From assembly GCA_029560465.1 (NCBI GenBank), contig JAKQKX010000002.1, positions 1 through 40,290 on the forward strand: 40,290 nucleotides of DNA. Direction: 5' to 3'. This document shows, in pieces, positions 3,821-21,760 of this stretch. The notes beneath the pieces are model-generated. The model made no database searches. It saw only the letters and a list, made by a program, of their open reading frames with translations, and was not told the origin of the DNA. The stretch is from Candidatus Omnitrophota bacterium (GTDB lineage Bacteria > Omnitrophota > Gorgyraeia > Zapsychrales > JANLHA01). Within the stretch, counting starts at the first letter, position 1, and every line of letters starts with the position of its first letter. Both the position numbers and the translations under genes were made by a program.

Positions 3821-4552
3821 ATGAAGCCCATACCCGAAAAATTCCTTTCTTCCTTGAGGATCTTTATAATCGTCGAGCTCCTCTTGGGGGCCTATTTGAT
3901 CATGCTAGCCGTTCTTTTCAAAACGCCGATCCCGGACATCAAGCAACAGCTGCTGGACGGGTATCGCTTCCCATACACGAACTCCTGCACTGTCGGCGAT
4001 TTAGTAGGGATGCATATCCATCTCCATCTTATTATTGTTATGCTCGTTTTTCTTACATTCTACAGTCTTGGGCAGCGGCTACCACGGCCGTCTTTCCCGA
4101 CCCGATTACCTTCAATCCCAGAACTGCTCCTCACGGCGGGGCTTGCGCTCTGGGCCTCTCTGATCTTTCTTCAGACGATAAACCACGCGCACATCTTTGC
4201 GAACGAGCGGCGGATTTTTTCAGGAAAATCCGTGTCCGAAAAACAGCGTTTTATCCATAAACAACCTTATGTCTTCGCTCAATATTGCCGCCGGCGGTTC
4301 CCGGGACGGCACAAAGGCTTCCTGCGCACAGACCTGGACCCCCAGAATGAACCTTTCGCCACCCAGCACAGGAAGCTCGTGTATTTTCTCTTTCCGGACA
4401 TTGATATCCGGAATATTTATGTCGACGCGGCATACGATTGCCTGATTTTCTATGACGAAGAAACCAGGCCAGGATCAATTCCTCCCGGGTTTAAAATCAA
4501 AGGCGTGTTCGATGCCCGGCACGTCATAGCCGTCAAAGAGGAGGCGCCATGA
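3821..4552 (+). CDS. Membrane protein of unknown function in a glycosyltransferase cluster
   Basis: The 243-residue protein has three predicted membrane helices (about 12-32, 66-84 and 102-119). A basic soluble C-terminal half follows (125-243), including RRRFPGRHKG and a strand-rich stretch YFLFPDIDIR. I do not recognise a family. The next gene, a GT-C type membrane protein, starts inside its stop codon (ATGA overlap), so the two are translationally coupled and probably work together, perhaps as an accessory subunit in surface sugar transfer. The start codon lacks a strong ribosome site (AAGG ten bases away). Confidence 0.65.
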   Translation: MKPIPEKFLSSLRIFIIVELLLGAYLIMLAVLFKTPIPDIKQQLLDGYRFPYTNSCTVGDLVGMHIHLHLIIVMLVFLTFYSLGQRLPRPSFPTRLPSIPELLLTAGLALWASLIFLQTINHAHIFANERRIFSGKSVSEKQRFIHKQPYVFAQYCRRRFPGRHKGFLRTDLDPQNEPFATQHRKLVYFLFPDIDIRNIYVDAAYDCLIFYDEETRPGSIPPGFKIKGVFDARHVIAVKEEAP

Positions 4553-5922
4553 TCCTCTTAACCCTAAAACTGTTTTACGCTTTACTCTTGCCGTGTCTAT
4601 TCGGCTTTGCCGTCATAGAGGCCATGAACGGCGCCCGCGAAATTCCCCCTGGGCTGAAATGGAGCTTGGCGTACGGGTTAGGGACGGGGTTCCTCGCTTT
4701 ATGGATGTTTACGTCCGGGATATATGGCGCGTCCTTCCACCCCCCTCTCTTGAGCTTGCCGTTGCTGGTCGTTATCCTCCGCTTCCTGCTGGCACGCCGG
4801 GTTAAAAGGCCTTCTGCCGCGGCGGGATGGGCTGAACCCGCTCCTTCCCGGGAGCCCTGGGCCATGACCAGCCCTCAAAAAATGCTATCCTTCCTGTTCT
4901 GCCTCTACATCCTTTATTACGTGGTCTTCGTCTTCTGGCGCTCGCTTCACATCCCGGTGTTTGTCTGGGACGGCGTCGCCACGATTGCTTATAAAGCGAA
5001 AATATTCTTCTATCACAAAGGGCTGGTTCCTCTTCACATCCTTCCCCACCCCTCCTACCCCCTGTTAGTCCCGCTGCTTGAAACCTGGATCACGTTAAAT
5101 ATATCCCAATGGGATGATCAGCTCATAAAATTTTTCTTCCCGTTTACGTTTATCGCTTACCTGGGCGTCCACTACTCTTTCTTAAAAATATTAACCCATA
5201 AATTCTGGGCCTTATTCGGGACAGCCCTTCTCGTGTCCTCCAACGCATTTGTTTTCTTTGCCACGGTTTCTTACCGCGATTTCTTTTTGCTTTACTTCAA
5301 TTGCACCGCAATTCTTCTCCTGCTGCTATGGAATAAAAAAAGGGCTCCCGCATATCTCCTTTCAGCCGCGTTCTTCTCCGGCATAACCACATTCACAAAA
5401 CTCGAGGGCACCGGGTATCTGTTCATCCACCTGGCATTGCTGGGAGCCCTCCTCATCCGTGACACAACAATCCCTACCCGTGGGAAATTCTTCCTGGGAG
5501 CAAAATTCCTGATTCCCAGCGGGGCTGTCCCGGCTTTATTCCTTGTGTACAAAACGCTCACCGGGGTTCCCGTTTCGGAACGCATTCAGTTCGGATTCCC
5601 ATGGGAGCATCTAGACCGCATCCCCTCTATCGTTACGCAATTCGGCTGGAACCTGTTTCTGACCGGGAACTGGAACATCATCTGGCTCTTATTATTTCTT
5701 TCTCTGCTGCAAGTCAACTGCAAAAAAGCGTCGCCGGAAACACAGGCGCTCATGATCACCACCGGCATGTTTTTCTTCCTGTACTTCACGATCGCTTGGC
5801 TGACACCCAATTTTATCTGGCTGGCCGGGAGCTTAGCTTATGACGGCTTAACCCGGGTCATATTACATTTTTTCCCTTTATCCACAATTTTAATAACATT
5901 GATCCTCCACTCTAAAGAATAG
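4549..5922 (+). CDS. GT-C fold polytopic membrane protein (putative glycosyltransferase)
   Basis: Polytopic membrane protein of 457 residues with roughly ten to twelve helices. The segment FVWDGVATIAYKAKIFF (Asp141-Gly142) lies in the first large loop and is followed by HPSYPLLVPLLETW. This layout is characteristic of GT-C enzymes (ArnT/PMT/GT39 relatives), where a loop acidic residue helps bind the lipid-phosphate sugar donor and a P-x-Y-P-L motif follows. Such enzymes move a sugar from a polyprenyl-phosphate carrier on the outer face of the inner membrane. Donor and acceptor are unknown. It has a GAGGAGG ribosome site inside the previous gene and is coupled to it. Confidence 0.7.
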   Translation: MILLTLKLFYALLLPCLFGFAVIEAMNGAREIPPGLKWSLAYGLGTGFLALWMFTSGIYGASFHPPLLSLPLLVVILRFLLARRVKRPSAAAGWAEPAPSREPWAMTSPQKMLSFLFCLYILYYVVFVFWRSLHIPVFVWDGVATIAYKAKIFFYHKGLVPLHILPHPSYPLLVPLLETWITLNISQWDDQLIKFFFPFTFIAYLGVHYSFLKILTHKFWALFGTALLVSSNAFVFFATVSYRDFFLLYFNCTAILLLLLWNKKRAPAYLLSAAFFSGITTFTKLEGTGYLFIHLALLGALLIRDTTIPTRGKFFLGAKFLIPSGAVPALFLVYKTLTGVPVSERIQFGFPWEHLDRIPSIVTQFGWNLFLTGNWNIIWLLLFLSLLQVNCKKASPETQALMITTGMFFFLYFTIAWLTPNFIWLAGSLAYDGLTRVILHFFPLSTILITLILHSKE

Positions 5923-5930
5923 ATATTTAT

Positions 5931-8630
5931 ATGCCTGACCGTCCAATTTCTAAAACACGATTCCTTTTTGTGGCGATGTTTTTCCTGCCCTTCTTTTTAT
6001 TCTACTGGATGGCGCCTTTTGTTTCGAAATACACGTTAGGGAATGATTATTGCTTTTATCCTATCCAGAACCAGATGTACCTGCTGTTTTCCATAAAGAC
6101 GGGTTCTTTCCCGCTGTTCATCCCTGGGTTCTCTCTCGGGCATTCCTCCGCCGCCCTGACGCTGGGACAGATCTTCCATCCCTTTCCGCATATCGCGGCC
6201 ATGCTCCCGGGATATTGGCAGGGGCAGGCCTTGGAATGGAACACGTGCTTAAGGCTTCTTTCCCTGGGGTTAAGCCATTGCCTGCTTTTTACCTTTCTAA
6301 CCAAACTGAACCTGACGAAAACCGCGTCATTCCTGATTTCCTTTATCACCGTCTACAATTTAAGGATGCTGGACCTGTTTCGCTACGGCGCATCTTTGGA
6401 AGCGTACACGGCCCATCTTATGCTGATCTCCGCGCTCGGACTCTGGCACCTGCAATCGGAGGAACAAAAACGTTGTCCTTTCTTAATTGTTATTTTTTCT
6501 TATATGTTGGTGGTGAGCGGCCATCCCCAAATGATGTATTTCGCATTCATGGCCACGGCCCTATTTATATTGATTCTGCCTTTTTACGCGACAATGATGC
6601 GTCCCGGCCAACAGTCCTGTATCAAGAAAGCCGCCGTCTTCTGGGGAAAAGCCGGGATTTTATGCGGCTCCGGTGTTCTCTTGGCCAGCGTTTATTCTAT
6701 CCCTTATTATTTCGATTTTATTCTAACGAATTCCACCCGCGTCGGCCGGGATTTTTCCTGGGCGGATTCTTATCTGGATACCTGGCTAGGTTCCTTGGGG
6801 AACTTTTTTAGCCCCCTGATTTCAAACATGGCCGGCGCCTTTGGGGCCTCATCCCTCATCAGCATGGCGGTCTTGATCCCTATTTTGGCAGCCTTCCGCA
6901 CCAGGGTCCCGAAAACGATCTGGGTGATTTGGGGATTTATGATCAGCGTCTTTTTCTGCATGCAAGGGGGACGGACCCCGTTGTACCCCTTATTTTGGAA
7001 ATACGTTCCGTTCGCAGACAGCTTCCGGGTCCCGGGCCGGACATCTTTTTTTATGCCCATGCTCATCATGCTTTTGCTGGCCTGGCTCGTGAACGCCCAC
7101 AAAATATCCCCAGAAAAAACCAAATATCCTCCGATAAAAATACTGGCCCTAACGGCCTTATTGATCACAGCGCTCTTTAACGCGTTCATTTTCCGGCAAC
7201 TGGGCCCCACGCCTGATGATGTGTCCCCGGAATTTTCCAATTCTTTATTTGTTTTTGGCCTGAAAGACCACGTCCTCGCTCAAAGTGATATTCTTCTGAT
7301 CTATTTAATAACAACCTGGGCCGGGGTCCTCCTGCTTCTGTTGCTGTTCCTCTTTTACGATCAGGACTCGCGCCGTTCCCAAAAAATCATCCCCCTCCTG
7401 TGTTTGCTGTCCGTCCTCCAGGTCATGCTCGTTCTACGGCACGGCACATATTACAGAGTTAAACGCCCCACGCTCACTTTTGAGGAGGCCTTAAAACAAA
7501 ACCGCGTTCAATTGTCTTATTTCTATTACCCTGGGTTCGGATTAGCGTCCGCACAGGTTTCTTCTCATCTCAAGCAATCTTTTCGCGAACCCAACCTGGC
7601 AAAAATATATAAAGAGGTGATCTGGGTTTCCAACCGCGGGCAGGTTTACGAACGCATGAAGAAAGGGATGGCCCCTCAAACTGTCTTTGTTGAAAAACCA
7701 GCGCGCCTTACCACACCCCCACTTCCCGCGGAAAACATACATGAAGAAGGCGGCCGGATACACCTGGATTACAGCTCTTATAACCGCCTGCGTTTTACCG
7801 CGCAGACACCATCCCCGTGCTTCTTCGGCCTTGCTTATCCTTATTCAGATTATTGGGAAGCCCGCGTCAACGGGCAAAAAGCGGCGACCTATCGTATCAA
7901 CGGCTTATACCTCGGCCTGGCCCTCCCCCAAGGCCGCAGCCAGATTGACTTCCGGTATTTTTCGCCTCCCGCTTTCTGGGGCATGGTGTTTTCATGCGCA
8001 GGGCTGTTTCTGGTCGGATCGTTCTTTTGTGTTTCTTCCCTGACAGGATTAACGCGCATCACGGCGCTTATGTGCGTGACGGTCTTGAGCTTGAGCACAT
8101 TTAAAACATGGCAATCAAGCTTATACACCGGCGAAAATATCGAAACAGCCTACGATTGGGTTTACACGCCCCCGTCCGGACGGTTCAACAAAGCTTACGG
8201 AAAACCTGTCACGGTTAACGCCTCATTCCCGGAATTTCACGCCATGAGCATGGTGGACGGAGACAGCCGACCGAATTCCGGGTTTATTTCCAAATTCCAT
8301 AAAGAACCGGCGTTGCGGCTTGATCTTCAAGAGACGACAGTCATCAAACAGATGGTCCTGTTTGAATCCGGGAACCGCCCTGCGGGCATTCCCAACATCT
8401 CCCAACTGGGGCTGTTTATCGACCAAATTGCCAAATATATCAATATCCGGCCGATTGTTATCGATATCTCCCAGGATGGACAGACCTGGCAGACCATTGC
8501 GACCATAACACAAGCAAAACGCGCCGGGGAGCCCCTGATTTTAACATTGGAGCCACCCGCCCAGGCCCGCCATGTGCGGATTAAATGTCAAAAAAACGTT
8601 CTGGGTTTTGATGAGATTGAAATTTACTAA
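5931..8630 (+). CDS. YfhO-like membrane protein with C-terminal discoidin-like domain
   Basis: Large membrane protein (899 residues). About 530 residues of transmembrane helices come first. A periplasmic region includes YPYSDYWEARVNGQ...RINGLYLGLALPQG (about 635-670), the recognisable YfhO module (W.A.VNG....R.N.L.....P.G). One further helix pair follows. The last 140 residues (about 757-899) fit an F5/8 type C (discoidin-like) jelly roll: VDGD near the start, then SQDGQTWQTIATI, then ARHVRIKC and DEIEIY. YfhO is a GT-C superfamily protein implicated in glycosylating lipoteichoic acid in Gram-positives. A discoidin tail would bind glycan. It begins 8 bases after the previous gene, without an evident ribosome site. 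Confidence 0.75.
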   Translation: MPDRPISKTRFLFVAMFFLPFFLFYWMAPFVSKYTLGNDYCFYPIQNQMYLLFSIKTGSFPLFIPGFSLGHSSAALTLGQIFHPFPHIAAMLPGYWQGQALEWNTCLRLLSLGLSHCLLFTFLTKLNLTKTASFLISFITVYNLRMLDLFRYGASLEAYTAHLMLISALGLWHLQSEEQKRCPFLIVIFSYMLVVSGHPQMMYFAFMATALFILILPFYATMMRPGQQSCIKKAAVFWGKAGILCGSGVLLASVYSIPYYFDFILTNSTRVGRDFSWADSYLDTWLGSLGNFFSPLISNMAGAFGASSLISMAVLIPILAAFRTRVPKTIWVIWGFMISVFFCMQGGRTPLYPLFWKYVPFADSFRVPGRTSFFMPMLIMLLLAWLVNAHKISPEKTKYPPIKILALTALLITALFNAFIFRQLGPTPDDVSPEFSNSLFVFGLKDHVLAQSDILLIYLITTWAGVLLLLLLFLFYDQDSRRSQKIIPLLCLLSVLQVMLVLRHGTYYRVKRPTLTFEEALKQNRVQLSYFYYPGFGLASAQVSSHLKQSFREPNLAKIYKEVIWVSNRGQVYERMKKGMAPQTVFVEKPARLTTPPLPAENIHEEGGRIHLDYSSYNRLRFTAQTPSPCFFGLAYPYSDYWEARVNGQKAATYRINGLYLGLALPQGRSQIDFRYFSPPAFWGMVFSCAGLFLVGSFFCVSSLTGLTRITALMCVTVLSLSTFKTWQSSLYTGENIETAYDWVYTPPSGRFNKAYGKPVTVNASFPEFHAMSMVDGDSRPNSGFISKFHKEPALRLDLQETTVIKQMVLFESGNRPAGIPNISQLGLFIDQIAKYINIRPIVIDISQDGQTWQTIATITQAKRAGEPLILTLEPPAQARHVRIKCQKNVLGFDEIEIY

Positions 8631-8642
8631 ACAAGCGTCAGG

Positions 8643-8662
8643 CCGCCCCTGATTATGGGCGG
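8643..8662 (+). terminator. GC-rich hairpin after the YfhO-like gene, possible weak terminator
   Basis: CCGCCC and GGGCGG pair perfectly around an eight-base loop, 13 bases after the YfhO-like stop. No T-run follows on either strand, so intrinsic termination is doubtful; it could instead protect the 3' end of the transcript. Confidence 0.3.
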
Positions 8663-8683
8663 GGCAGCAAAAAATATCTGTGC

Positions 8684-8712
8684 TTGATGTCTTTTAAATT
8701 TTATGGTTAAAT
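8684..8712 (+). promoter_or_regulatory. Candidate sigma-70 promoter before the GT2 gene
   Basis: TTGATG, a 17-base spacer and TTAAAT lie about 78 bases before the proposed start of the GT2 gene, just after the hairpin that follows the YfhO-like gene. Both boxes match consensus only partly. Confidence 0.4.
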
Positions 8713-8789
8713 AAACCCGATAATAAACGTGCCTTTCTTAACCGGATTGACTTTAACGGTTTAGCATAATCAAAAAGGGAAACACCACC

Positions 8790-9788
8790 ATTCTTCATCG
8801 CTCAACAACTGACATCAAAAACGCAATTCATAGCTCTGGCCCCCTGGTATCAGTCATCATTCCATATTATAATGATTTGCAGTATATCCATGAGGCCGTG
8901 CAATCGTGCCTGGATAACACCTATCGGAATTTTGAAATCATTATAGTGGATGATGGCTCGTATACCCCCTTAAAGATCGAAAACTTACGTGTCGATCCCC
9001 ATGGACACGCCATAACCATCCTGCGTAATTCAGAAAACCGCGGTTCAGGTTGCGCCAGGAATAAAGGGATCCAACACGCGAAAGGCGGATTGATTGCTTT
9101 CCTGGATGCGGATGACTTGTGGTTTCCTGAGATATTGGAGCAGCAAGTTAAGATTTTCATGACCGATCCGTCAGCCGTATGGGTCTATACCAACGGGTAT
9201 TACCTTATCAACGGAAAAATCATGCGGCATCCCAATTCCTACTATCACGGGTTCCGCAAGGGTTTTCCACAAGGGTTTGATGTGAATCGATATCATCTGC
9301 AGGGGTATAATTACATGACGTTTTCCTCCAACATGTTTAAAAGGGACGTCTTGCTGGAAGTGGGACTGTTTAACGAGGCGCTCCGGGTTTCAGAAGACTG
9401 GGATTTATTCGTCCGGGTGGCAGAACGCTACCCTGTCCACGCCATCAATGAACCCCTGATGTATTACAGGGTCAACAACGCCGGGCGGCATTTTATCAAC
9501 CGGGACGATTACGTTCACGTCAACACCCAGATCCTGAACACGATGTATCAAAGGCAAAACTTGCTCCCGGACCGGATCCAGGACTTAAACACAGCCATAG
9601 CCATCGTTTACGAAAGGGCCGGCATACAGAGGATGAACGCCGGATTAAATCAAGAGGCGCGCCGGTTCCTCTTCCATCCCAGGACAAAACCGCTAACATT
9701 AAAATGGCGAATGTCATGCTTGAGGGCCCTTTCTTTCTTACCCAATATTTTTTATAAAACGGCTTTATGGGCCTTTGATCATTTATGA
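8790..9788 (+). CDS. Family 2 glycosyltransferase with apparent non-AUG start
   Basis: Cytosolic inverting glycosyltransferase. The N-terminal strand SVIIPYYNDLQYI, then FEIIIVDDGS, then FLDADDLWF (the D-x-D metal/nucleotide-sugar site) and the later SEDWDLFVR (candidate catalytic base) are all canonical GT-A/GT2 features. The first ATG/GTG/TTG in frame is a TTG at 8877, which would cut off the essential SVIIPYY strand. The frame is open back to 8757 with no ATG, GTG or TTG. I propose the ATT at 8790 because AAGGGA lies nine bases upstream; the ATA at 8766 and CTG at 8844 are alternatives. The gene overlaps the radical SAM gene by four bases. Donor and acceptor are unknown. Confidence 0.8.
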   Translation: MLHRSTTDIKNAIHSSGPLVSVIIPYYNDLQYIHEAVQSCLDNTYRNFEIIIVDDGSYTPLKIENLRVDPHGHAITILRNSENRGSGCARNKGIQHAKGGLIAFLDADDLWFPEILEQQVKIFMTDPSAVWVYTNGYYLINGKIMRHPNSYYHGFRKGFPQGFDVNRYHLQGYNYMTFSSNMFKRDVLLEVGLFNEALRVSEDWDLFVRVAERYPVHAINEPLMYYRVNNAGRHFINRDDYVHVNTQILNTMYQRQNLLPDRIQDLNTAIAIVYERAGIQRMNAGLNQEARRFLFHPRTKPLTLKWRMSCLRALSFLPNIFYKTALWAFDHL

Positions 9789-10873
9789 CCGAAATCCCAT
9801 TTTTTACGAATGAACTTAAAAAATTTTTCGGCAAGCCAAGCCTGGACTCCCTGATTTTATACGTGACCAGCCGCTGCAATGCCAGGTGCTCTTTCTGTTT
9901 TTATAATAAAAATTTAAATACTGTCCCGGATTTAAGCCTCGAGGAAATCACAAAAATCTCTGAACAGATCCCCGCGCTCAAAGGCCTTTTGATCGCTGGC
10001 GGCGAACCTTTCCTGCGCGGGGATTTGCCTGAAATCATAAACACCTTTGTATCAAACTGCCACATTCAGGTCCTTCAAATCCCAACCAACGGGTACTTCA
10101 CAGACCGGATTGTTTCCCTCGTACAGGACGTTACGGCGAAATCCCCTGACCTGAATTTATCAATCCAGGTATCGCTAGACGCCATCGGGGACCGGCATGA
10201 CGCCCTGCGCGGGCTGAAAAACTGTTTCCAGCAGGCTGAAAAAACAATTTCAGCCCTGAAGGCTTTACGGGATAAAGACATGCGCCTGCGGATTCTCGTC
10301 GTCTCCGTCTTGACACCGGAAACCCTGACGGCCTGCCGTGATCTCGCGGCGTATATTAAAGAGAAGGCAGACCCCGATTATCACTGGTTTGAACCCGTCC
10401 GCGATATGCCTCACCTTCAAAAACAGCTCCGCCTTACACGGGACGACGTGTCTTTTCTGCGGGACAACCTAATATACTATCTTAAAAAAGCCAAAGGCGC
10501 GGCATCCAGTATTTACAACAGCGCTATATTCAACAAGCTGATAACCTCCTTCAGCCTGAATAATTTTGACATCGCTTATAACAATTTATTGCACAACAAG
10601 CGCTGGCCCGTTCACTGCTGCGCCGGGGAAAGGATGGCGGTGATGTACCCGGACGGCAGGCTGGCTGCCTGCGAATTAAGGGAAGAAGCGGTCGATATCA
10701 AAAAGGTCAATTACAACATTGCCGAGGCCCTGCAACTGGCGCAAATAAAAAAAGTCCGGGAAGATATTTCACGGCACGTTTGTGACTGCACGCACGGCTG
10801 TTTCATCCCGACTTCCGTGCGATACTCTCCGGCAGAATTAATCAAAATCTTCGGGAAATCCTGTTTCCGGTAA
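9785..10873 (+). CDS. Radical SAM protein with SPASM-type C-terminal cysteines
   Basis: This 362-residue enzyme has the radical SAM cluster motif C-x3-C-x2-C at Cys31, Cys35 and Cys38 (SRCNARCSFCFY) and a GGEP SAM-binding motif at 72-75. Its C-terminal region holds Cys278/279, Cys296, Cys333, Cys335 and Cys339, the spacing expected for SPASM or twitch auxiliary Fe-S clusters. Such proteins use SAM radical chemistry on peptides, sugars or other substrates. The gene starts within the stop of the GT2 gene (ATGA overlap) and sits four bases before a GT-C gene, so its substrate may be a glycan or carrier-linked sugar. That assignment is inference; no precursor peptide is evident nearby. Confidence 0.85.
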   Translation: MTEIPFFTNELKKFFGKPSLDSLILYVTSRCNARCSFCFYNKNLNTVPDLSLEEITKISEQIPALKGLLIAGGEPFLRGDLPEIINTFVSNCHIQVLQIPTNGYFTDRIVSLVQDVTAKSPDLNLSIQVSLDAIGDRHDALRGLKNCFQQAEKTISALKALRDKDMRLRILVVSVLTPETLTACRDLAAYIKEKADPDYHWFEPVRDMPHLQKQLRLTRDDVSFLRDNLIYYLKKAKGAASSIYNSAIFNKLITSFSLNNFDIAYNNLLHNKRWPVHCCAGERMAVMYPDGRLAACELREEAVDIKKVNYNIAEALQLAQIKKVREDISRHVCDCTHGCFIPTSVRYSPAELIKIFGKSCFR

Positions 10874-10876
10874 AAT

Positions 10877-12532
10877 ATGGCTCAAGACCCGTCCAACAAT
10901 ATTTTCTTTAACTTATTCCGTCGGAAAAGGTGGCTATTCTTTTTGTTCACCCTCATCGCGGGTCTCTATATTTTATTCCCTTTTCAGGACTTTCAATATC
11001 ACCTTTCCACCGGAGATCACGGGCGGGAGCTTTACAGCTATAAAAAAGCCCTGGATGGCGCCCTTCCCTACCGGGATTACTCCTGGCTTTACGGGCCGCT
11101 CCTTCTATATTACTACGCGCTCTGCTATAAGATATTGGGTTTGACCATACAAAGTGTTTTATGGGGGCAAAACCTGCTGATATTAGGTGTGGGGCTTTTA
11201 TTGTATCTCACCGCATCACTTTTCATGGCCCCGTCCCTTTCAATGGCGTGCGCCCTCTGGTACTGGGCATATCGCGGGACCGAGTTCTTTTATTCATACC
11301 ACAACATCGGCGGGGTGTTGGCCATCTTGTTCACGCTTTATTTCACCTTTCGCCACATCAAAACCGAGGGCCTCAACAATATATTTTACGGTTTCCTGAG
11401 TGTCACGGCCCTCCTGCTCATACGGTTGAATATGGGGCTGGCCATGTTGCTCGCTTATGCCTCTTCCCTGCTTATCATCGATCACGTCCAGCAATCCCCG
11501 CGGCGCAAAAAAAACAGAACATTGTACGCCATTTTATCGGTGACAGCTCTAATCATAACGGCCATCGTTTACTGGTCCCTCATCCATCCTTTGCCTAAAT
11601 ATGCCGTCGATCAGACCTTCCCTTACACTCATAATCAACTGGCCGCAGAAAGAAAGGGGAGCATGGAAACACTCCAGGCATTCTACCTGTCGGTCCTGGA
11701 CAGGTTTCCCACGCCTTTATCAAGAGTCTTTTTCGGAGTCGGGGCAATTCTGTCTCTTCTGCAATGCCTGGCCCTTAAGAATAAAATACCGGCGCCCCAG
11801 AAAACGCGGCTAACGCTCATCCTCTCGACGTTGCTCCTGTTTTTTATTTTAAGTTTACATGAATTTATCGGCAGCGGGGTTTGGTTCCGGTTCAATTGGG
11901 CCTTTCCCGTTTTCCTGCTGCTGATGTTTTTCCTGCTGCATTTCCTGATCGCCTTCTGTCCTTTTAAAACGTACACGAAGGTCTTTCATTATAGTCTCTT
12001 TTTTATATTGGCCGCCAGCGTATCAACAGAGGTCCTCGATACCCATCACAACATCAGAAAGATCAAAACACCCGGCCACAGCATCCGTGCCGGGCGCAAC
12101 AGGATTTACACCGTGCAGTCCCCGGAGTGGATCCGAACCGTTAATCAAGCCTCGCAATACATCCGTGACAACGTCCCTCCCGGCGGTAAAATTTTCACGT
12201 TCCCCCATGATTCGCTTTATAATTTTCTTTCCGAACGGGACAACGCCACACGGCAGCTCGCCCTGTTCGAGCATACCGGCATCCCTGAAGAACAAGAGCG
12301 CGCCATCATTGCCGATCTCGAGCATAATCATGTCAACTGGATTGTGGAATCCAACCGGAGCCGTTCCGATGAATTCGGCATGGGGGCTTTCGGGCAAACG
12401 CATTGCAGGCTGATCACGGCTTACATCCTGGAAAATTTTGAAGCGGTCGCCCAAATGGGCGAATGGACCCGCCCGCCGGGGTGGGCGTGGGATCATGGCG
12501 TGCGTATCTGGAAACGGAAATCCCCGATCTAG
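10877..12532 (+). CDS. GT-C fold polytopic membrane protein (putative glycosyltransferase)
   Basis: Membrane protein of 551 residues with about eleven helices and a C-terminal soluble domain (about 400-551). The first periplasmic loop carries GDHGREL (46-52) followed by YRDYSWLYGPLLLYYYAL (65-82). This is the acidic pair plus Y-R-D...YGP arrangement common in GT39/PMT-like transferases of unknown specificity. The soluble tail includes a stretch resembling the P-x-x-x-x-I-F-T-F-P-H-D-x-L segment often seen in these proteins. It starts three bases after the radical SAM stop and is the last plus-strand gene of the block, converging on the next gene with only 21 bases between. Confidence 0.7.
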   Translation: MAQDPSNNIFFNLFRRKRWLFFLFTLIAGLYILFPFQDFQYHLSTGDHGRELYSYKKALDGALPYRDYSWLYGPLLLYYYALCYKILGLTIQSVLWGQNLLILGVGLLLYLTASLFMAPSLSMACALWYWAYRGTEFFYSYHNIGGVLAILFTLYFTFRHIKTEGLNNIFYGFLSVTALLLIRLNMGLAMLLAYASSLLIIDHVQQSPRRKKNRTLYAILSVTALIITAIVYWSLIHPLPKYAVDQTFPYTHNQLAAERKGSMETLQAFYLSVLDRFPTPLSRVFFGVGAILSLLQCLALKNKIPAPQKTRLTLILSTLLLFFILSLHEFIGSGVWFRFNWAFPVFLLLMFFLLHFLIAFCPFKTYTKVFHYSLFFILAASVSTEVLDTHHNIRKIKTPGHSIRAGRNRIYTVQSPEWIRTVNQASQYIRDNVPPGGKIFTFPHDSLYNFLSERDNATRQLALFEHTGIPEEQERAIIADLEHNHVNWIVESNRSRSDEFGMGAFGQTHCRLITAYILENFEAVAQMGEWTRPPGWAWDHGVRIWKRKSPI

Positions 12533-12553
12533 GACATAATCGCGGGAAGACGC

Positions 12554-14107
12554 TCAATCTTTTAAGACTTCATAAATTTTGTACTCTCGCCCCTCTCCCC
12601 AAGCCTGTTCAACGTTTAACTGGCATCCCTGTATTTCTTGTAATGAAATTTGTTTGGTATCAATATTAAACGGAATAAGGACGTCGTTCCGGGCCAGCGC
12701 CGAAAAAGGCATATCGCTCAGGTTCAACTCAGGCAGTATATATTTTTCCTTGTAATCTTCAAAAATAAAATAACGGACGTTCAACTCCCGGATCTTTTCA
12801 CACACATCCTTTTCCCGCAAAAAAAGGTAAGACGTCATATAACGGCGGGTTAAAAAACCCAATTCCCGGGGCTTCCCGAAAACGAAGATGTCATCCGCTT
12901 GCGTGCTCGTTTTGATCCAAGACACCATGTCCCGTGCGTCTTTCGTATGAATCTGGTCGTCATCATAGTCGAAAACCATCAGGATGCTGCCGATGTTATG
13001 CAAAACGAGAAGGGCCAGGATCACCCTCGCGATCCGCTGAAAGCTCAACGCGCGAGAAGATACACAACGGCCGAGGGCCTGCACCCCTTCGAGGGCAAAA
13101 AGGACCAAAAACCCGATCACGGGATAAAGATACCTTGTCCCCCCGCTGAAATACCAGACAAGGTTACCCAAAAGATAAACCGCGACAAAGCTTTCAATAA
13201 CCGTTAAAGACCTTTTCCGGATCTTATACAGGAACCCAATCATCATAAAGCCGAAAAAAAGAGGCGTGACCACATGGACAGTCCCTGCCAGTAAACGGAA
13301 AATCCATAAAGTCAACGCCGTCTTACACGGGAAAAAGAAAATGACAAGCGTCTTTATGGTCTGCGGCATAGCCTGGCAGCCCATCAGTAACCATTTTTTA
13401 AAAGGGAGCGCGACTTCATGATAATAATTCAGGCCATCGGTCCCGAAACTCCGTTGGATGAGAAAGGAGGCTGCCAATCCCAACAGGATAAAAAGAACCG
13501 CCCTCCCATCCTTTTTCTTATGAAGAAAATAGACCAGCATGGAAATGAACAAGGCGATGCCTGCCCAACGGATAAAGAAGGCGACGCACATGAAAAGTGT
13601 TGCTGTGATTAGAGTGGGAAACGGCCGATTGCCTTCGTTGGCCTCTTCGTACTGGATCCACGAGAAGATCGAGGCCGTGGTGAAAAACAAAAATGCCGGG
13701 TCTGACATGATGGACTGCTTAAAAATAAAAAAATCCGGGGACGTTAGCAGCAGAACCGCCCCCAAAAACGCGTCTTCCTCCCCCACGCGTTTCCGCATAA
13801 TAGCAAACAACACCCAAATGGACCCCAGGAAGAAAATAATGTTCGGCAATTTCAGGATTCGGAAATCCAACCCGAAATTCTTCAACAAGGGGATCAAAAT
13901 CAAAGGGAACCCGGGAGGGGTTACGACACTCCTGCCGATATAATAGGTGTGGGCATAATCTGTGTGTTCAATAATATTCTGTGCCTGGCCAAGATATTGG
14001 CCGAAGTCCGCGCACCAATTGTGGCCATCTTTGATGGTCGCCCCATGGACAACAAGAAAGAGGACAGACAAAACAATAATCCAAAATCTGTGTTTGCCGT
14101 GTATCAT
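12554..14107 (-). CDS. GT39/PMT-like polytopic membrane glycosyltransferase
   Basis: Membrane protein of 517 residues. The N-terminal helix is followed by a loop with ADFGQYLGQAQNI (Asp34) and then TPPGFPLILIPL (63-73), the hallmark PPG-P-L motif of GT39-type (ArnT, PMT) enzymes that use polyprenyl-phosphate sugars. About ten further helices precede a soluble tail with VFGKPRELGFLTRR. It is transcribed opposite to the main glycan block and lies 20 bases downstream of the spermidine-synthase-like gene, probably on one transcript. No strong ribosome site precedes the ATG. Substrate unknown; surface glycan or lipid A-type modification is inferred from context. Confidence 0.75.
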   Translation of the reverse strand: MIHGKHRFWIIVLSVLFLVVHGATIKDGHNWCADFGQYLGQAQNIIEHTDYAHTYYIGRSVVTPPGFPLILIPLLKNFGLDFRILKLPNIIFFLGSIWVLFAIMRKRVGEEDAFLGAVLLLTSPDFFIFKQSIMSDPAFLFFTTASIFSWIQYEEANEGNRPFPTLITATLFMCVAFFIRWAGIALFISMLVYFLHKKKDGRAVLFILLGLAASFLIQRSFGTDGLNYYHEVALPFKKWLLMGCQAMPQTIKTLVIFFFPCKTALTLWIFRLLAGTVHVVTPLFFGFMMIGFLYKIRKRSLTVIESFVAVYLLGNLVWYFSGGTRYLYPVIGFLVLFALEGVQALGRCVSSRALSFQRIARVILALLVLHNIGSILMVFDYDDDQIHTKDARDMVSWIKTSTQADDIFVFGKPRELGFLTRRYMTSYLFLREKDVCEKIRELNVRYFIFEDYKEKYILPELNLSDMPFSALARNDVLIPFNIDTKQISLQEIQGCQLNVEQAWGEGREYKIYEVLKD

Positions 14108-14127
14108 TTCTGCGTCTCAGGGCTTAA

Positions 14128-16167
14128 CTACCCCCTCCTTCTGGAAAGGCCGCGATAGGACAGGTAATACATCATCATCGCAAGGACAAACAGGAAACGG
14201 AAGCCCGTTAACATTGAAAAATATTCACAGCACCCTCCGATGATGGACCCAAGCAAATTGCAGGCATAATCACTGGGGACATTTCGGGATGCCCTGAACG
14301 AGCTGGCAAATATTATGCCCGCGAACAGGATGGGCAAAGACAACAAACAGGAAGAAATTATAATTCCGAGGTGCCGGTCAAATGCCAGGAAAATCTCGGG
14401 GTTAAGCAACCAGTTGAGAAAAAGCGAGAACATAAGCAAAGCATACATCCATCGGATGTTGATGTTCTTTGATTTCTCAACGAACAAAGTCGCGAACAGG
14501 ATCATAATTAATATCGATATAATAACAGCGGAATTAACGATCCAGGTCGAACCGAATAAAAGGGCAAACCGGGTGATGCTCGTCGTCTCCAACAGCATAA
14601 ACCCTGAACCGAGGAAGAAAAAATGAGTGTTAAAATCTTTAATGGATAAAGACTTAAAGCAGAACACGCCCACGACAGAGACAACCAGCACGAAAAAGAT
14701 GATGAGGATATAATGAAAAGGAACGCCCCTGTTCATTAAATATAAATATGGCCAATCGTCCCGGATGGCTTGTGCCCCCTTGTCAAACCCGTCATATTCC
14801 TTAAAATTGGGGGCGTCGACCGGGCCCATCCCCCGCACACCCGGTCCCGCCAAGAATATCGCTGTGTCATTGTCAACATAGGTCGACGCCCGGAACACCC
14901 TCAGGTCGTCCTTGAAAACCTCCTTTAAGGCCACATAGAGTTTGGATGCGACCCATTCTTTAAATACATAATATGTCAACGATAATACGCCGCCGGGTGC
15001 AAGGCGATCCTGGATATCCAGGAAGCTTTCCTTTGTATAAATAAAATTATCCAAACGGACACTCGAGAATTGAGATAAAACTTTGTGGGAATCCAAGTAA
15101 CCGAATGTGATTAAATCAAACTTCCGGTCGGTCTTTTTTATAAAAGACCGCGCGTCATCAACAACCACACGGACACGGTCGGACCGGTATGGCTTCTCCG
15201 GGTGCAGGCGCTTCCCCAAACCGGCTATAAAAGGGTCGATCTCCACCGCGTGGACCGTCTGGCTGCCCATGCGCAGGGCGGCTGATGCGTCATTGCCAGA
15301 CCCGGCCCCCAAGATTAACACATCCTGCGGATGAAATAACTTATAAGGGAATTCATAAATGTCTTTGTAACGGTTGAGGCCCGGGGATTCCCGGACCGAT
15401 TCCTCCGACAAATTAAATGCGTTTTGGTGAAACATATTATTCGCGGCAATTTCATACCCGATGACTTTCTGCAACCGCTGGGAAATAATGGGTTGCATGT
15501 CGATTTTATAGTACGGCGACCAGAAAGTCCCCTTCCCGAGGGGATGGACAACAAGGAGAATAAGCGCGGAGATAAAGACTTGAAGAGTCAGCAATTTTAC
15601 TGAAGACCGGTAAAACCACATGGTGAGCGATAGGCCTAATAAAAACCAATAGACCGGTTCCATCATCCGGTAAGACAAGTAAGAAAAAACCGCTGTCCCT
15701 AAAATGCTGCCCAGGATGTTGACCGAATAAGCGGCAAGCGGCTTAAAATCTTTAAGGCACCGCCCCAATTTCTGTCCCGGGGGAACGAAAAGCATCGTGT
15801 TAACAATAAACACAATAAGGACGACAAGCAAAAAATTCACTTTCCCATCATAGAATCCCAGTAAATGCTCTGTCTGCAAAAAAGCGGCGTTAATCTCGAC
15901 ATCATGGAACAGGAACGCCAACGTGACATAACCAAGCATGCCGAGGGGGAAGAAATTCATTAGGTTGGATTTATGCTCTGCAAGCAGGCATCCGATCCCA
16001 AGGCCTAAAAAGGCTGAAATGAGAATAATATTCGTAAAATAAGCGACAATCTGGATGCTCGAAGGAATCCACCGAATAAATAATATTTCAAAAAATAAAG
16101 TTACAAAACTGACCAGAAAAAGCTCTGACATTTTAGAAAAATCCGACCTGGAACGCAGACCGAGCAT
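14128..16167 (-). CDS. Polytopic membrane protein with embedded spermidine-synthase-like methyltransferase fold
   Basis: A 679-residue protein. About seven helices come first (FLVSFVTLFFEILFIRW, then a GLGIGCLL turn typical of spermidine-synthase-associated membrane domains). A Rossmann domain follows near residues 275-420 (VLILGAGSGNDASAAL, HAVEIDP, VDDARSFI, FDLITFGYLD), then about six more helices. The Rossmann part matches the SpeE/SAM-dependent fold. Whether it transfers aminopropyl groups, methylates or only binds nucleotide is unknown. The start at 16167 is preferred because AAGGAGA precedes it; an upstream in-frame ATG at 16221 has no such site. It has its own promoter (16252-16280) and leads the two-gene unit with the GT39-like gene. 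Confidence 0.75.
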   Translation of the reverse strand: MLGLRSRSDFSKMSELFLVSFVTLFFEILFIRWIPSSIQIVAYFTNIILISAFLGLGIGCLLAEHKSNLMNFFPLGMLGYVTLAFLFHDVEINAAFLQTEHLLGFYDGKVNFLLVVLIVFIVNTMLFVPPGQKLGRCLKDFKPLAAYSVNILGSILGTAVFSYLSYRMMEPVYWFLLGLSLTMWFYRSSVKLLTLQVFISALILLVVHPLGKGTFWSPYYKIDMQPIISQRLQKVIGYEIAANNMFHQNAFNLSEESVRESPGLNRYKDIYEFPYKLFHPQDVLILGAGSGNDASAALRMGSQTVHAVEIDPFIAGLGKRLHPEKPYRSDRVRVVVDDARSFIKKTDRKFDLITFGYLDSHKVLSQFSSVRLDNFIYTKESFLDIQDRLAPGGVLSLTYYVFKEWVASKLYVALKEVFKDDLRVFRASTYVDNDTAIFLAGPGVRGMGPVDAPNFKEYDGFDKGAQAIRDDWPYLYLMNRGVPFHYILIIFFVLVVSVVGVFCFKSLSIKDFNTHFFFLGSGFMLLETTSITRFALLFGSTWIVNSAVIISILIMILFATLFVEKSKNINIRWMYALLMFSLFLNWLLNPEIFLAFDRHLGIIISSCLLSLPILFAGIIFASSFRASRNVPSDYACNLLGSIIGGCCEYFSMLTGFRFLFVLAMMMYYLSYRGLSRRRG

Positions 16168-16251
16168 GCCGTCTCCTTTTTTCGTTGATTTCCATTTTTT
16201 TATATATTTAAAACAAATCACCGTTGAACTCGAGAACTTGTATGAAATATT

Positions 16252-16416: not shown

Positions 16417-17178
16417 TCAAGGACGTTGCCTGCCCATCATTTGTAAGAAACCATCCAGGATTGTTAACGGATGCGGCGGACACCCCGGGATATACAGGTC
16501 AACCGGGATAACAGCGTCCACGCCACCATGGACTTCCCCATGCCCCATGAAAGCCCCCCCCGAGATCGCACACGCTCCGACCGCAATAACAAGCTTGGGG
16601 GCCGGCACCGCTTGATAGGTTTTTTCTAAGGCCAACCGCATGTTGTTCGTAACCGGCCCGGTAACGACAATCCCGTCCGCGTGGCGCGGGGAGGCGACAA
16701 ACTGAATTCCGAACCGGCCGAGGTCAAAACTTAACGTGCTTAAAACGTTGATGTCCGCCTCACACCCGTTGCATCCCCCCGCACTGACCTGGCGCAATTT
16801 CAACGACCGCCCAAAAATATTTCTTATTCTCTCCGGGGGCGTCATTTCACGCCGGCTTGGCGCGGCGGTCACAATCAGGTCTTGCCTCCCGCGTTCCGCC
16901 AAATGGTATTCCCGTGTAAAGGTGACCACCCTGCCCGGGCAGGATCTTTGACACTCCCCGCAAAAAAGGCATTTCCCCAAGTCAAGGGCAGGAGCGGCCT
17001 GTGAGCCTCCGATCGCGCCCGTCGGGCACACAGCCTGGCATTGCGCATAATCATCGAGGGCGGCCCCGGCAAGGATCTTGGGCCGCCCTAAAAACCTTTC
17101 CGGCAAAACATTATTCTTGACCGGGAACGGCATCGTCCGGTACCCCTGCCTGAATCTGGCGCATAACGCTTTTATCAT
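16417..17178 (-). CDS. Ehr-type small subunit: fused ferredoxin (HyfH-like) and NuoB-like (HyfI-like) domains
   Basis: A fusion of 253 residues. The N-terminal part (about 35-90) is ferredoxin-like, with one complete motif (Cys70, 73, 76, 80) and a degenerate one in which only Cys47 and Cys51 remain; the first two cysteine positions are Leu41 and Tyr44. The C-terminal part (about 120-250) is a NuoB/hydrogenase small-subunit domain. CNGCEAD (Cys136, Cys139), GACAISGG (Cys203) and PGCPPHP (Cys233) supply a proximal 4Fe-4S cluster. It would pass electrons within the peripheral arm of the complex. It is the last gene of the operon, 18 bases after the large subunit, with an AGGGA ribosome site. 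In E. coli Hyf these are two separate proteins. Confidence 0.85.
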   Translation of the reverse strand: MIKALCARFRQGYRTMPFPVKNNVLPERFLGRPKILAGAALDDYAQCQAVCPTGAIGGSQAAPALDLGKCLFCGECQRSCPGRVVTFTREYHLAERGRQDLIVTAAPSRREMTPPERIRNIFGRSLKLRQVSAGGCNGCEADINVLSTLSFDLGRFGIQFVASPRHADGIVVTGPVTNNMRLALEKTYQAVPAPKLVIAVGACAISGGAFMGHGEVHGGVDAVIPVDLYIPGCPPHPLTILDGFLQMMGRQRP

Positions 17179-17196
17179 AACAATCCCTGTCCCTCT

Positions 17197-18705
17197 TTAA
17201 AGGTCGTGACCGCAGTACGACAAGTTAAAACTTTTATTACAGAGCGGAAAGTCAGAAATCTCTTCACCTCTCATGGCCATCGCCAACCCGATCCAATTAT
17301 GAAAAGACGGGTCCACAATCTTATACCGTGCGAAACTCCCGTCCCTGCCGGACAAGGCCGTGTGGCAAATCTCACCCCGCCAGCCTTCCACCAAGGAAAC
17401 AACCATATGGTCATGTCGGACGGGAGGGACGACCCCGCGGATCTTCCCCGCCGGCAAATTATTCAACTGGTCCAGGATAAAGTCCACGGACTTTTGCATC
17501 TCAAGCCACCTCACAAAGGCGCGCCCGAAGACATCGCCCGAGACGCACGTCGACACAGGGACCTGAGAAAACTGAAAGGCCCCTGTTGGAAAATCAAAAC
17601 GCACATCCCGCTCGATGCCGCACGCCCGCGCCGCCACGCCGACTAATCCCAAATCCACGGCCGTCTTGGGCTCGACCACACCTGTCTCGTCGAATCTGTC
17701 AATAACCAAGGAGGAATCCCAAATCAAGGAAACAGCGTTTTTCACCTCCGCAAAAATCCTTACTAAGCGCCTCTTTAACTCCTGAATCAAGGCGTCATCA
17801 ACGTCAAACAGGACACCCCCGGGGCGTATCATAGTCCGGCCGAAACGGTTCCCGCAAATCAGCGCCGTCAGGTTCAGGAAGTCCCCCCGCAAGCGGCCGC
17901 AGTAAGAAGATGTCGGCAAATATCCGACATCCCCCGCCATCGCTCCCAGGTCGCCGGTATGATTCGCCAACCGTTCCAATTCAAGCATAATCGCCCGGAG
18001 CATGGAGGCCCGTAACGGGACCTCACACCCCGACAGCCCCTCAATGGCCTGACAATACGCCAGCGTATGCCCAACCGTTGTGTCTCCCGCGGCTGTCTCA
18101 ATATAATGGATGGCCCGTTTATCAGGCCCGCCCATCAGGGCTTTCTCGATACCGCGGTGCTGGTAGCCGAGAGAAATCTCCAGATGAAACACCTGCTCCC
18201 CGTGGCATTGAAACCGGAAATGTCCCGGCTCAATGATCCCCGCATGCACAGGCCCAACGGCAACCTCATGAATCTCTTCCCCGGAAATTTTTAAAAAATT
18301 CATATCCGAAGGGGTAATGTCTTCCGCCTTTAACTGCCCCCCTGCCTTTTTCCAGGGCGCATGAAATCGGATCGGCTTAAGCCATGGATGACCTTCCGGG
18401 CGCGTCCCCCACTGCTCAAAAATTTCCCGTTCAAACCAATGGACCTGCGGCATTTCAATCGTTAATGACGCATAACGATCTTTCACGACCGTTGAGAAAG
18501 GCTTCAAATATCCTTCTTTATCATGCGCGAGAACCATCATGAGGACGAGGCTCCCGTTTTCCGGATATCCCCAAAACGACACAACCCTTGCGCCGCCCTG
18601 CGTTTCTTCCTGCGCAAGGCTGCGGAAAGCTTCAAACGGCAACCGAGGGATCTCCCGCACGGCCAAGGCCTGACCATTATATATTCTCAAGTCCTGCGCA
18701 GACAT
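17197..18705 (-). CDS. Ehr-type large subunit (NuoC-NuoD/HyfG-like) lacking Ni-binding cysteines
   Basis: The 502-residue subunit has a NuoC-like N-terminal domain (about 40-115, with HWFEREIFEQWG and GHPWLKPIRFH) and a NuoD/[NiFe] large-subunit domain (from about 145). GYQHRGIEKAL at 180-190 is strongly conserved in this superfamily. At the usual L1 site (R-x-C-x-x-C) it reads ETAAGDT, giving Ala206 and Thr209. At L2 (DPC-x-x-C) it reads DPSFHN, giving Ser467 and Asn470. All four Ni ligands are therefore missing, the defining trait of Ehr complexes, so it should not make or use H2 at a NiFe site. The start at 18705 overlaps the previous stop as TGATG after a GGGAGGGG site. Confidence 0.9.
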   Translation of the reverse strand: MSAQDLRIYNGQALAVREIPRLPFEAFRSLAQEETQGGARVVSFWGYPENGSLVLMMVLAHDKEGYLKPFSTVVKDRYASLTIEMPQVHWFEREIFEQWGTRPEGHPWLKPIRFHAPWKKAGGQLKAEDITPSDMNFLKISGEEIHEVAVGPVHAGIIEPGHFRFQCHGEQVFHLEISLGYQHRGIEKALMGGPDKRAIHYIETAAGDTTVGHTLAYCQAIEGLSGCEVPLRASMLRAIMLELERLANHTGDLGAMAGDVGYLPTSSYCGRLRGDFLNLTALICGNRFGRTMIRPGGVLFDVDDALIQELKRRLVRIFAEVKNAVSLIWDSSLVIDRFDETGVVEPKTAVDLGLVGVAARACGIERDVRFDFPTGAFQFSQVPVSTCVSGDVFGRAFVRWLEMQKSVDFILDQLNNLPAGKIRGVVPPVRHDHMVVSLVEGWRGEICHTALSGRDGSFARYKIVDPSFHNWIGLAMAMRGEEISDFPLCNKSFNLSYCGHDL

Positions 18706-20174
18706 CAGCCCCCTCCCAGCTCGTGAGCCACTTCCCCCAAGGCGGATTTCAGCCAATAAGGGAAATACACCCCGAGGGTGATCACCAAAACAAAAAATAA
18801 CGCCGGAACCCATATCCGCAAAAAAGTGTTTCTATTGTAAAAGTTATCCTGATTGCCTTGCGGGGCTGTGCCGCCTAAAGTCATCATGATAAAAATCCGC
18901 GCCATCCCGATAAAAATGACCCCGAGCGTTGCCAGGAAAACAACGGCAAGCCCGTTCCGTCCCTGGAACAAAGTCTCTTTTAAAATAATAAATTTACCCA
19001 AAAAAATTCCGGAGGGGGGCGTCCCGGTTATTAACAAAAAGCCCGTCATCCAAAGCGCCCCTGACCACCGCATTTTTCCAGTCAGGATTCCCTGGATATC
19101 CGCGATTCTCTTCGTCCCGAAATACGACAGGATATTCCCGGCGACGAAAAACAATCCTGCCTTAGTCAAAGAATGCCCCAGCATATTGACCAACGCGCCG
19201 AAAACAGCGCTTTCGCCCACCCCTATCCCGAATATTATCATCCCCATGTGTTCCACGCTTGAATAGGCCAACATCCTTTTATAATCCGTTTGCCCCAGGA
19301 TAAAAACAGCCGCGAAGGCCATAGACACAAGGCCAAAAACAATAAATATCTCCTGACAATATGACTGAAGCCCGGCCGCAATACAAATCTGGTACCCGCG
19401 CAGGATGCCCAGGAAAGCACAATTCAATAGGGCTCCCGAAAGAAGCGCGGAGACGACCGACGGCGCCTCGCTATGCGCGTCAGGCAGCCATGTGTGAAAA
19501 GGAGCCAGCCCCATTTTTGTCCCGTACCCGACAAACAGAAGCAGGAACGCCGCTTTCAGCCAGGGGACATTGATATCCCGGGCGCTTGCAATCATTTGCC
19601 CTAACAGCATTTCTTCCCGGTGATGGTCCGCGACAGCCAAGAAAAAAACACCGAGTAACGCCACGGCTATGCCAACGGAACAAATTAAAAGGTATTTCCA
19701 GGTTGCTTCCAGGGACCGTTTGGTCCGGTGAAAATAAATTAAAGGCGCGCTGGCCAGCGTCGTGGCTTCAATGCCAACCCATAAAACCGCCAGGTGCTGG
19801 CTGGCGACAACAAAAGTCATCGTTGAAAGAAATAATAAAAAACACCCGCTAAAAACCGCTTCGCGAGAAAATAACCTGCGCTTTTCATCTTTATTGTCTT
19901 CATGATGGTTTTCGCCGGATAAATACTCAATTCCATAAAACGACGCTCCGAAAAACAGCAGGCTGGTAATCGCCAAGAAAACAACCCCCGTATGATCAAA
20001 AGCAAACCACGCCCCCGGATTCACGCCGTCCCCGTTCCCCCACACCAAACCCGTCAGGACCAGATGGGCCGAAGAGCAAACGACAATCAGGACCCGACGC
20101 TTAAAATCATCCCGGATGAAGAAGGAAACCAGCCCAAGCAACAACGGGACGGTGATCAACAATACAGTCAGCAT
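18705..20174 (-). CDS. HyfF-like antiporter-type membrane subunit
   Basis: Proton-conducting/antiporter-like subunit of 489 residues (NuoL/M/N, Mrp family), about fourteen helices. YGTKMGLAPFHTWLPDAHSEAPSVVSALLSG holds the conserved TM7 Lys and the H-WLP-AH signature, and SSVEHMG is the later conserved loop. After SALLSGALL the family often keeps a lysine; here the sequence is LNCA, so one channel lysine may be altered. It should couple redox steps in the peripheral arm to ion transport. It sits in HyfF position between the HyfE-like and large-subunit genes, 12 bases after the former and overlapping the latter by one base. Confidence 0.85.
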   Translation of the reverse strand: MLTVLLITVPLLLGLVSFFIRDDFKRRVLIVVCSSAHLVLTGLVWGNGDGVNPGAWFAFDHTGVVFLAITSLLFFGASFYGIEYLSGENHHEDNKDEKRRLFSREAVFSGCFLLFLSTMTFVVASQHLAVLWVGIEATTLASAPLIYFHRTKRSLEATWKYLLICSVGIAVALLGVFFLAVADHHREEMLLGQMIASARDINVPWLKAAFLLLFVGYGTKMGLAPFHTWLPDAHSEAPSVVSALLSGALLNCAFLGILRGYQICIAAGLQSYCQEIFIVFGLVSMAFAAVFILGQTDYKRMLAYSSVEHMGMIIFGIGVGESAVFGALVNMLGHSLTKAGLFFVAGNILSYFGTKRIADIQGILTGKMRWSGALWMTGFLLITGTPPSGIFLGKFIILKETLFQGRNGLAVVFLATLGVIFIGMARIFIMMTLGGTAPQGNQDNFYNRNTFLRIWVPALFFVLVITLGVYFPYWLKSALGEVAHELGGG

Positions 20175-20186
20175 CTTATGAACGCC

Positions 20187-21758: not shown

Positions 21759-21760
21759 TC

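Follow-up and report, generated by a model that had tools for sequence, protein, structure and literature searches.

The stretch of DNA analysed here (further called the window) consists of positions 1 to 40,290 of contig JAKQKX010000002.1 of a Candidatus Omnitrophota bacterium, from a genome of 2.77 Mb in 103 contigs (95.7% complete, 0.8% contamination). It contains a 12-kb block of eight genes, named P1 to P8 (Table 1), in which P4 encodes a family 2 glycosyltransferase (GT2), P5 a radical S-adenosylmethionine (SAM) enzyme and P6 a GT-C glycosyltransferase. All eight genes could be recovered within positions 3821–16221 from open reading frames (ORFs), Pfam matches and the predicted fold of P6, and agree with the GT-C/GT39-like, YfhO-like, GT2, radical SAM and SpeE-like proteins listed in an earlier interpretation made from the DNA alone (the sequence-only reading); position 16167, where that reading placed the end of the block, is an ATG codon inside P8. 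P4 belongs to the GT2 family by its Pfam score (114.4 bits versus a gathering cut-off of 23.3), and P5 to the radical SAM superfamily by its match to PF04055 (55.5 bits versus 29.5) and its CxxxCxxC motif. The notable point of this locus is, rather than the block as such, that P5 represents a radical SAM family that is repeatedly coupled to glycosyltransferases.

Table 1. Coordinates of the genes and motifs in the window, and of three giant proteins in other loci (aa, amino acids; A1, 34-row alignment of the P5 family)
Feature	Position	Strand	Description
P1	3821..4552	+	243 aa, no family; small, membrane-bound, with a soluble tail; pairs with P2, outside the core
P2	4549..5922	+	457 aa, multi-span membrane protein, GT-C-like by appearance; no Pfam family
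P3	5931..8630	+	899 aa, YfhO-like membrane protein with C-terminal F5/8C domain
P4	8790..9788	+	family 2 glycosyltransferase (PF00535); start likely, see text
P5	9785..10873	+	362 aa, radical SAM enzyme of glycosyltransferase-linked family
CxxxCxxC (C31, C35, C38)	9875..9898	+	SAM-binding [4Fe-4S] motif of P5, invariant in A1
GGEP (residues 72–75)	9998..10009	+	invariant in A1
C278-x-A-G...G-x4-C296, then E297	10616..10672	+	predicted auxiliary cluster, half 1; C278 and C296 invariant in A1
C333-x-C335-x3-C339 (CxCTHxC)	10781..10801	+	predicted auxiliary cluster, half 2; from alignment
P6	10877..12532	+	551 aa, GT-C glycosyltransferase by predicted fold (PMT/OST/ArnT); third core gene; no Pfam match
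P7	12554..14107	-	PMT_2/PMT, GT39-like GT-C protein (Pfam)
P8	14128..16221	-	membrane protein with Spermine_synth (spermidine-synthase-like) domain; alternative ATG start at 16167
Giant protein, L242	1974-8210		GT2, GT-B, radical SAM and SPASM in one chain (the three giants span 1662–2079 aa)
Giant protein, L243	4034-9100		same domains in one chain
Giant protein, L245	5842-10827		same domains in one chain

Relatives of P5 were found in 31 of the 384 genomes of the phylum with P5 itself as query (E≤1e-35), and in 80 of the 384 with a profile of 34 relatives (E≤1e-50); a single-query contig scan with P5 returned one relative only. In addition to the invariant residues in Table 1, C335 is invariant and C333 is present in at least 90% of the rows of A1, while C339 is kept in 38 of the 44 rows of a larger alignment. 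From this conservation, the pattern C-x-A-G...G-x4-C-E...C-x-C-x3-C is a putative auxiliary-cluster signature of the family. The sequence-only reading had labelled P5 as radical SAM/SPASM, of which the first part stands and the second applies only loosely, because the C-terminal half matches no Pfam or NCBIfam model. The Pfam SPASM domain (PF13186) leaves P5 unmatched, and of two relatives L240 narrowly passes the cut-off (22.2 versus 21.5) and L241 stays below it (16.8).

The genomic context of the family was analysed for 44 distinct proteins of the phylum encoded on larger loci (phmmer score >75), using a GT2 profile built from P4's own matches, by which GT2s unlike P4 are missed. In five of these proteins a GT2 is part of the same chain, and for 26 others a GT2 gene lies immediately alongside, i.e. 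31 of the 44. GT2s occupy 30 of the 85 places at ±1, versus 21 of the 348 places at ±2 to ±6; the Fisher p-value of 3e-11 is too small, as some rows are related to each other (e.g. L061/L078 and L043/L044), but the contrast remains. As a control, 24 other radical SAM genes from these loci, less similar to P5, were examined, and only one of them has a GT2 neighbour. At one locus (L083:8904-12503) the family member lies between a gene of the PNP_UDP_1 phosphorylase superfamily and another radical SAM gene, with an AglJ/PpgS-like GT2 at +2.

The coupling extends to single polypeptides. The five fusion ORFs of 625–700 residues (in L027 the GT2 domain is visible only with the P4-derived profile), and two more fusions found by profile search (L240 and L241), all have the GT2 first and the radical SAM domain second. 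In a tree without L019 (a short match) and with the Parabacteroides relative described below, in which several long branches are unsure, L089 and L013 (the same protein as L027) form a supported pair, and L087 pairs with the unfused L056 on a separate supported branch; this topology makes it likely that fusion took place on at least two separate occasions. Moreover, eight giant ORFs of 1195–2079 residues contain a more distant radical SAM domain (CxCWLVC), together with one or two GT2 domains in seven cases, the eighth ORF being open at the contig start. In the three giants scanned with Pfam (Table 1), a GT-B domain (Glycos_transf_1) precedes the radical SAM domain. The sequence-only reading had tied the radical SAM gene to glycosyltransferases and had named a lack of synteny as evidence to the contrary; the synteny observed is strong and is accompanied by these repeated fusions.

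The order GT2, radical SAM, GT-C of the window is found again in a locus from another family of the same order (L022 in genome G017), where the three genes are orthologous (62%, 55% and 47% identity, respectively) and separated by gaps of 32 and 4 bases, the latter assuming that the GT-C gene starts downstream of the radical SAM stop codon. The flanking genes are different, and what recurs in this related genome is P4-P5-P6 rather than the full block. Among the loci inspected the trio is kept orthologously only in L022; the order GT2, radical SAM, PMT_2 occurs in L065, L023 and L086, which brings the loci with Pfam or fold support for such an order to five of 44, including the window. The start of P4 required special attention, as the frame has no ATG, GTG or TTG codon upstream of the conserved N-terminus (SVIIPYYN) as far back as the stop at 8754, and use of the first usual start codon, TTG at 8877, would cut the GT-A fold. 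On sequence grounds P4 likely starts at the ATT at 8790–8792, which follows AAGGG and roughly corresponds in position to the start codon (ATG) of the orthologue in G017; this ATT appears to be either a rare start codon or an assembly error.

Outside the phylum, a tblastn search of plasmid records gave one full-length relative of P5, P0001 (WP_009275239.1, 33% identity over 96%), in a Parabacteroides distasonis record. It carries the whole family signature, and the next gene encodes an EryCIII/GT28-like (GT1-type) glycosyltransferase. The record (NZ_OY725749.1, 35388-64449, L220) is labelled plasmid 4, but may be a chromosomal piece, because genes for a glycyl-tRNA ligase and a gyrase/topoisomerase subunit are present on it. 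Two of the 18 plasmid records with any match were inspected; in the second, the match is shorter and falls within a glycan locus of Pseudobutyrivibrio. Phage searches gave weak matches, of which the best two cover more than 80% of P5 at 25% identity, and IMG/VR gave 18 loci, of which two were inspected. In the viral-collection contig L223 a radical SAM gene of the family overlaps by 8 bases with a gene that was judged by eye to be GT2-like.

The structural model of P5 (mean predicted local distance difference test score, pLDDT, of 87) matches many radical SAM enzymes. Foldseek ranks SkfB first and BlsE second by E-value, and in a second structural comparison BlsE (7vob) leads (Z 23.7, 295 residues, 3.4 Å). 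BlsE/MilG is a cytosylglucuronate decarboxylase (TIGR04466) that acts on a sugar ring; its C31xxxC35xxC38 motif carries the same residue numbers as that of P5, and its GGEP motif is one residue off. BlsE differs from P5 in belonging to a soluble nucleoside pathway of Streptomyces and in having a CxCx2C motif, as opposed to CxCx3C plus C278 and C296 in P5. TIGR04466 (cut-off 400) is also absent from the best 25 of 69 NCBIfam families for P5, where the top score is 57.4 bits. The accessible text of a 2013 paper assigns C317xC319xxC322 of BlsE, near its C-terminus, to a second cluster (PMC3715490); this and the motif numbering speak for BlsE. The aminocyclitol dehydrogenase BtrN resembles P5 in having, besides the radical SAM core, one auxiliary cluster, predicted in the case of P5; its fold is more distant (Z 16.2) and its cluster region aligns weakly with the C-terminal half of P5 (E 0.047). 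Unlike P5, BtrN is a short, soluble antibiotic enzyme without a glycosyltransferase linkage.

According to its model (pLDDT 88.5), P6 is a member of the GT-C superfamily, with Pmt4 (Z 24.4), ArnT (Z 23.3, 423 residues) and oligosaccharyltransferase (Z 23.1) as structural matches; values within one Z unit were counted as tied. GT2, sugar-modifying enzyme and GT-C act in series in the ArnC-ArnD-ArnT system, in which ArnD is a deformylase. Sugar-acting radical SAM enzymes are known from antibiotics and hopanoids, and HpnJ is a radical SAM enzyme of the B12-binding type; a Pfam scan found no B12-binding family in P5, while HpnJ itself was not compared. In bacteriohopanetetrol cyclitol ether formation, a glycosyltransferase adds a sugar to the lipid and a radical SAM enzyme rebuilds it afterwards (HpnI-HpnK-HpnJ, according to the accessible part of PMC12583986). 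The hopanoid system, a published precedent for radical SAM rebuilding of a lipid-bound sugar, differs in its deacetylase step and its hopanoid acceptor. No published description of the P5 family, or of a radical SAM family routinely paired or fused with glycosyltransferases, was found in the open-access literature, which leaves subscription papers largely uncovered; the accessible part of a paper on conflict systems (PMC7159879) mentions radical SAM and glycosyltransferase domains without joining them.

We consider it fairly probable that P4-P5-P6 form a small glycan-modification cassette, in which P5 tailors a sugar together with the neighbouring glycosyltransferase. In such a scheme, SAM would be cleaved at the CxxxCxxC cluster of P5, and the resulting 5'-deoxyadenosyl radical would abstract hydrogen at a ring carbon of the sugar that is handled by P4. 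A second Fe-S cluster on C278, C296, C333 and C335 could accept or return an electron, with C339 as a spare ligand or hydrogen donor, and the product may be an oxidised, decarboxylated or epimerised (inverted) sugar. The GT-C kind to which P6 belongs uses polyprenyl-phosphate-linked donors, as established for ArnT and PMT, and for this reason a carrier-bound glycan in the membrane is the likely substrate. After tailoring, P6 may move the sugar to the outside; this is the weakest step, since GT-C-like genes are common at other offsets too. The family, its signature, the fold classes and the recurrent physical coupling were obtained by computation, and the substrate, the sequence of steps, the chemistry and the part played by P6 are inferred.

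Several observations weigh against this proposal. Multi-span proteins of at least 380 residues (GT-C-like, with spans taken from a simple hydropathy count) occupy 8 of 43 places at +1 versus 47 of 348 at ±2 to ±6, which is hardly above the cluster background; a GT-C as obligatory third partner was therefore dropped, and P6 is regarded as a probable partner of P4-P5. P4 is unlike lipid-phosphate GT2s such as ArnC (NF007986, 32.4 bits versus a cut-off of 529). The glycan loci of these genomes are rich in radical SAM genes, and hence adjacency alone need not mean a shared substrate. In addition, the peptide maturase SkfB is nearly as close to P5 in fold as BlsE (Z 22.6), and closer by sequence; the fold therefore does not fix the substrate. 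Finally, 13 of the 44 family members have no GT2 beside them. Among these, L026 adjoins a GT1 that the GT2 profile missed, L034 adjoins a weak deacetylase match under the cut-off, L066 and L078 are cut by contig ends, and five form a subclade ending in CxCHWG with a short-chain dehydrogenase (SDR) upstream in all five cases; an SDR partner would fit a ketone intermediate. A P5 paralogue ending in CxCHWG (G000:C2:64617-65699, L035:9617-10699) is grouped with a SPASM-like radical SAM gene, a B12-type radical SAM gene and split transketolase halves, as judged by eye, and the same run, from the CxCHWG protein through the transketolase halves, is present in a viral-collection contig (L222:4971-6068); this paralogue set appears to be a conserved pathway of its own.

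A wider proposal, which we put forward tentatively, is that the family is a 'glycan-editing' radical SAM class acting in cis with glycosyltransferases: the glycosyltransferase would load a sugar on a membrane carrier and the radical SAM domain, fused or adjacent, would rebuild it in place, a principle that Omnitrophota would have extended to GT2, GT2, GT-B, radical SAM chains that reach about 2,000 residues.

Among the alternatives, P5 could act not on the sugar but on a lipid or other small molecule that becomes glycosylated, such as a headgroup, hopanoid or ether lipid. The tetraether lipid synthase 7tol is the top sequence match of P5 in the PDB (E 5.7e-9), the member in L083 adjoins a PNP_UDP_1 gene, and the hopanoid system (PMC12583986, in its accessible part) provides a precedent for lipid glycosides. 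The 7tol alignment is, however, confined to the SAM-binding core (residues 25–155), and the loci contain no constant lipid gene that we could see, while glycosyltransferases are frequent, so that we regard this explanation as unlikely.

P5 could also be a peptide maturase, with the GT2 glycosylating the matured peptide as in systems of the mycofactocin type. Its fold is close to the structures of SkfB, SuiB, a sactipeptide maturase and anSME, and GT2 neighbours score weakly to MftF. On the other hand, a precursor gene would hardly fit, given the overlap of P4 with P5 and the 3 bases between P5 and P6, and upstream of P4 the 159-base gap has only short unsupported open stretches; a comparison of short ORFs between the window and L022 covered the coding stretch and the gap, its matches being read as frames over conserved genes rather than mapped singly. 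Membership of a characterised peptide-maturase family, by which the sequence-only reading would have given up its glycan proposal, was not found: none of the NCBIfam radical SAM families, peptide maturases included, reaches its cut-off among the best 25 of 69 for P5 (top score 57.4 versus 325 bits) or the best 25 of 68 for P0001, and no model matches the C-terminal half. Fusions of one or several glycosyltransferases with a radical SAM domain would also be unexpected for a maturase, which we therefore hold to be rather improbable.

The sequence-only reading took all eight genes as one surface-glycan pathway, based on their physical packing with several four-base overlaps. The packing is partly borne out, as two overlaps of exactly four bases are present (P1/P2 and P4/P5) and P2 and P3 are 8 bases apart, but 'several' was generous and P3 and P4 are separated by the gap mentioned above. 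P2 homologues were found in 35 of the 64 genomes of the order (E≤1e-5), and a P1 homologue lies directly beside P2 in all nine other P2 loci inspected, with P5 or P6 in none of these stretches; P1-P2 is a separate, order-wide gene pair outside the core. Of the 384 genomes in the phylum, 51 have P6 homologues, often in tandem; 48 of these 51 are of the same order or family as the window or are its own genome, and none of 20 inspected loci has a P5 homologue within four genes of the P6-family genes. In one locus (L127:9630-13750, G010) a P6-family GT-C gene overlaps by four bases with a gene for an 823-residue protein with weak similarity to the SpeE-like P8 (E 6e-11). The five close homologous loci of P8 outside the window all lack other block genes. 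Because the P1-P2, P6 and P8 families occur apart elsewhere, and P7-P8 lie on the strand opposite to P1-P6, the single pathway was dropped as very unlikely; the 12-kb block is a composite with P4-P5-P6 as conserved core. Apart from P4-P5, this tracing covered P1, P2, P6 and P8. In P3, the F5/8-type C domain scores over the Pfam cut-off and YfhO under it (23.0 versus 28.5). The proteins of the block include neither a flippase nor a nucleotide-sugar enzyme that we could see, which says little; the decoration of an existing polymer, which the sequence-only reading had drawn from this absence, would go beyond what sequence can tell. Genes next to the block (16417-23737) resemble a membrane-bound hydrogenase operon, judging from translations read by eye.

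Least credible of all is that P5 is unrelated to P4 and merely shares a neighbourhood rich in radical SAM and glycosyltransferase genes (61 GT2s among the 626 genes of the sampled loci), in view of the offset and control tests and the repeated fusions.

If P5 indeed tailors a sugar with its neighbouring glycosyltransferase, radical chemistry would join the toolbox of bacterial surface glycans, and part of the large uncharacterised glycosyltransferase content of Omnitrophota would be accounted for. The relative on a record of Parabacteroides distasonis, a culturable gut organism, would make this reading testable. Should the wider glycan-editing proposal hold as well, these bacteria would build, on lipids, surface sugars that lie beyond the reach of nucleotide-sugar pathways.

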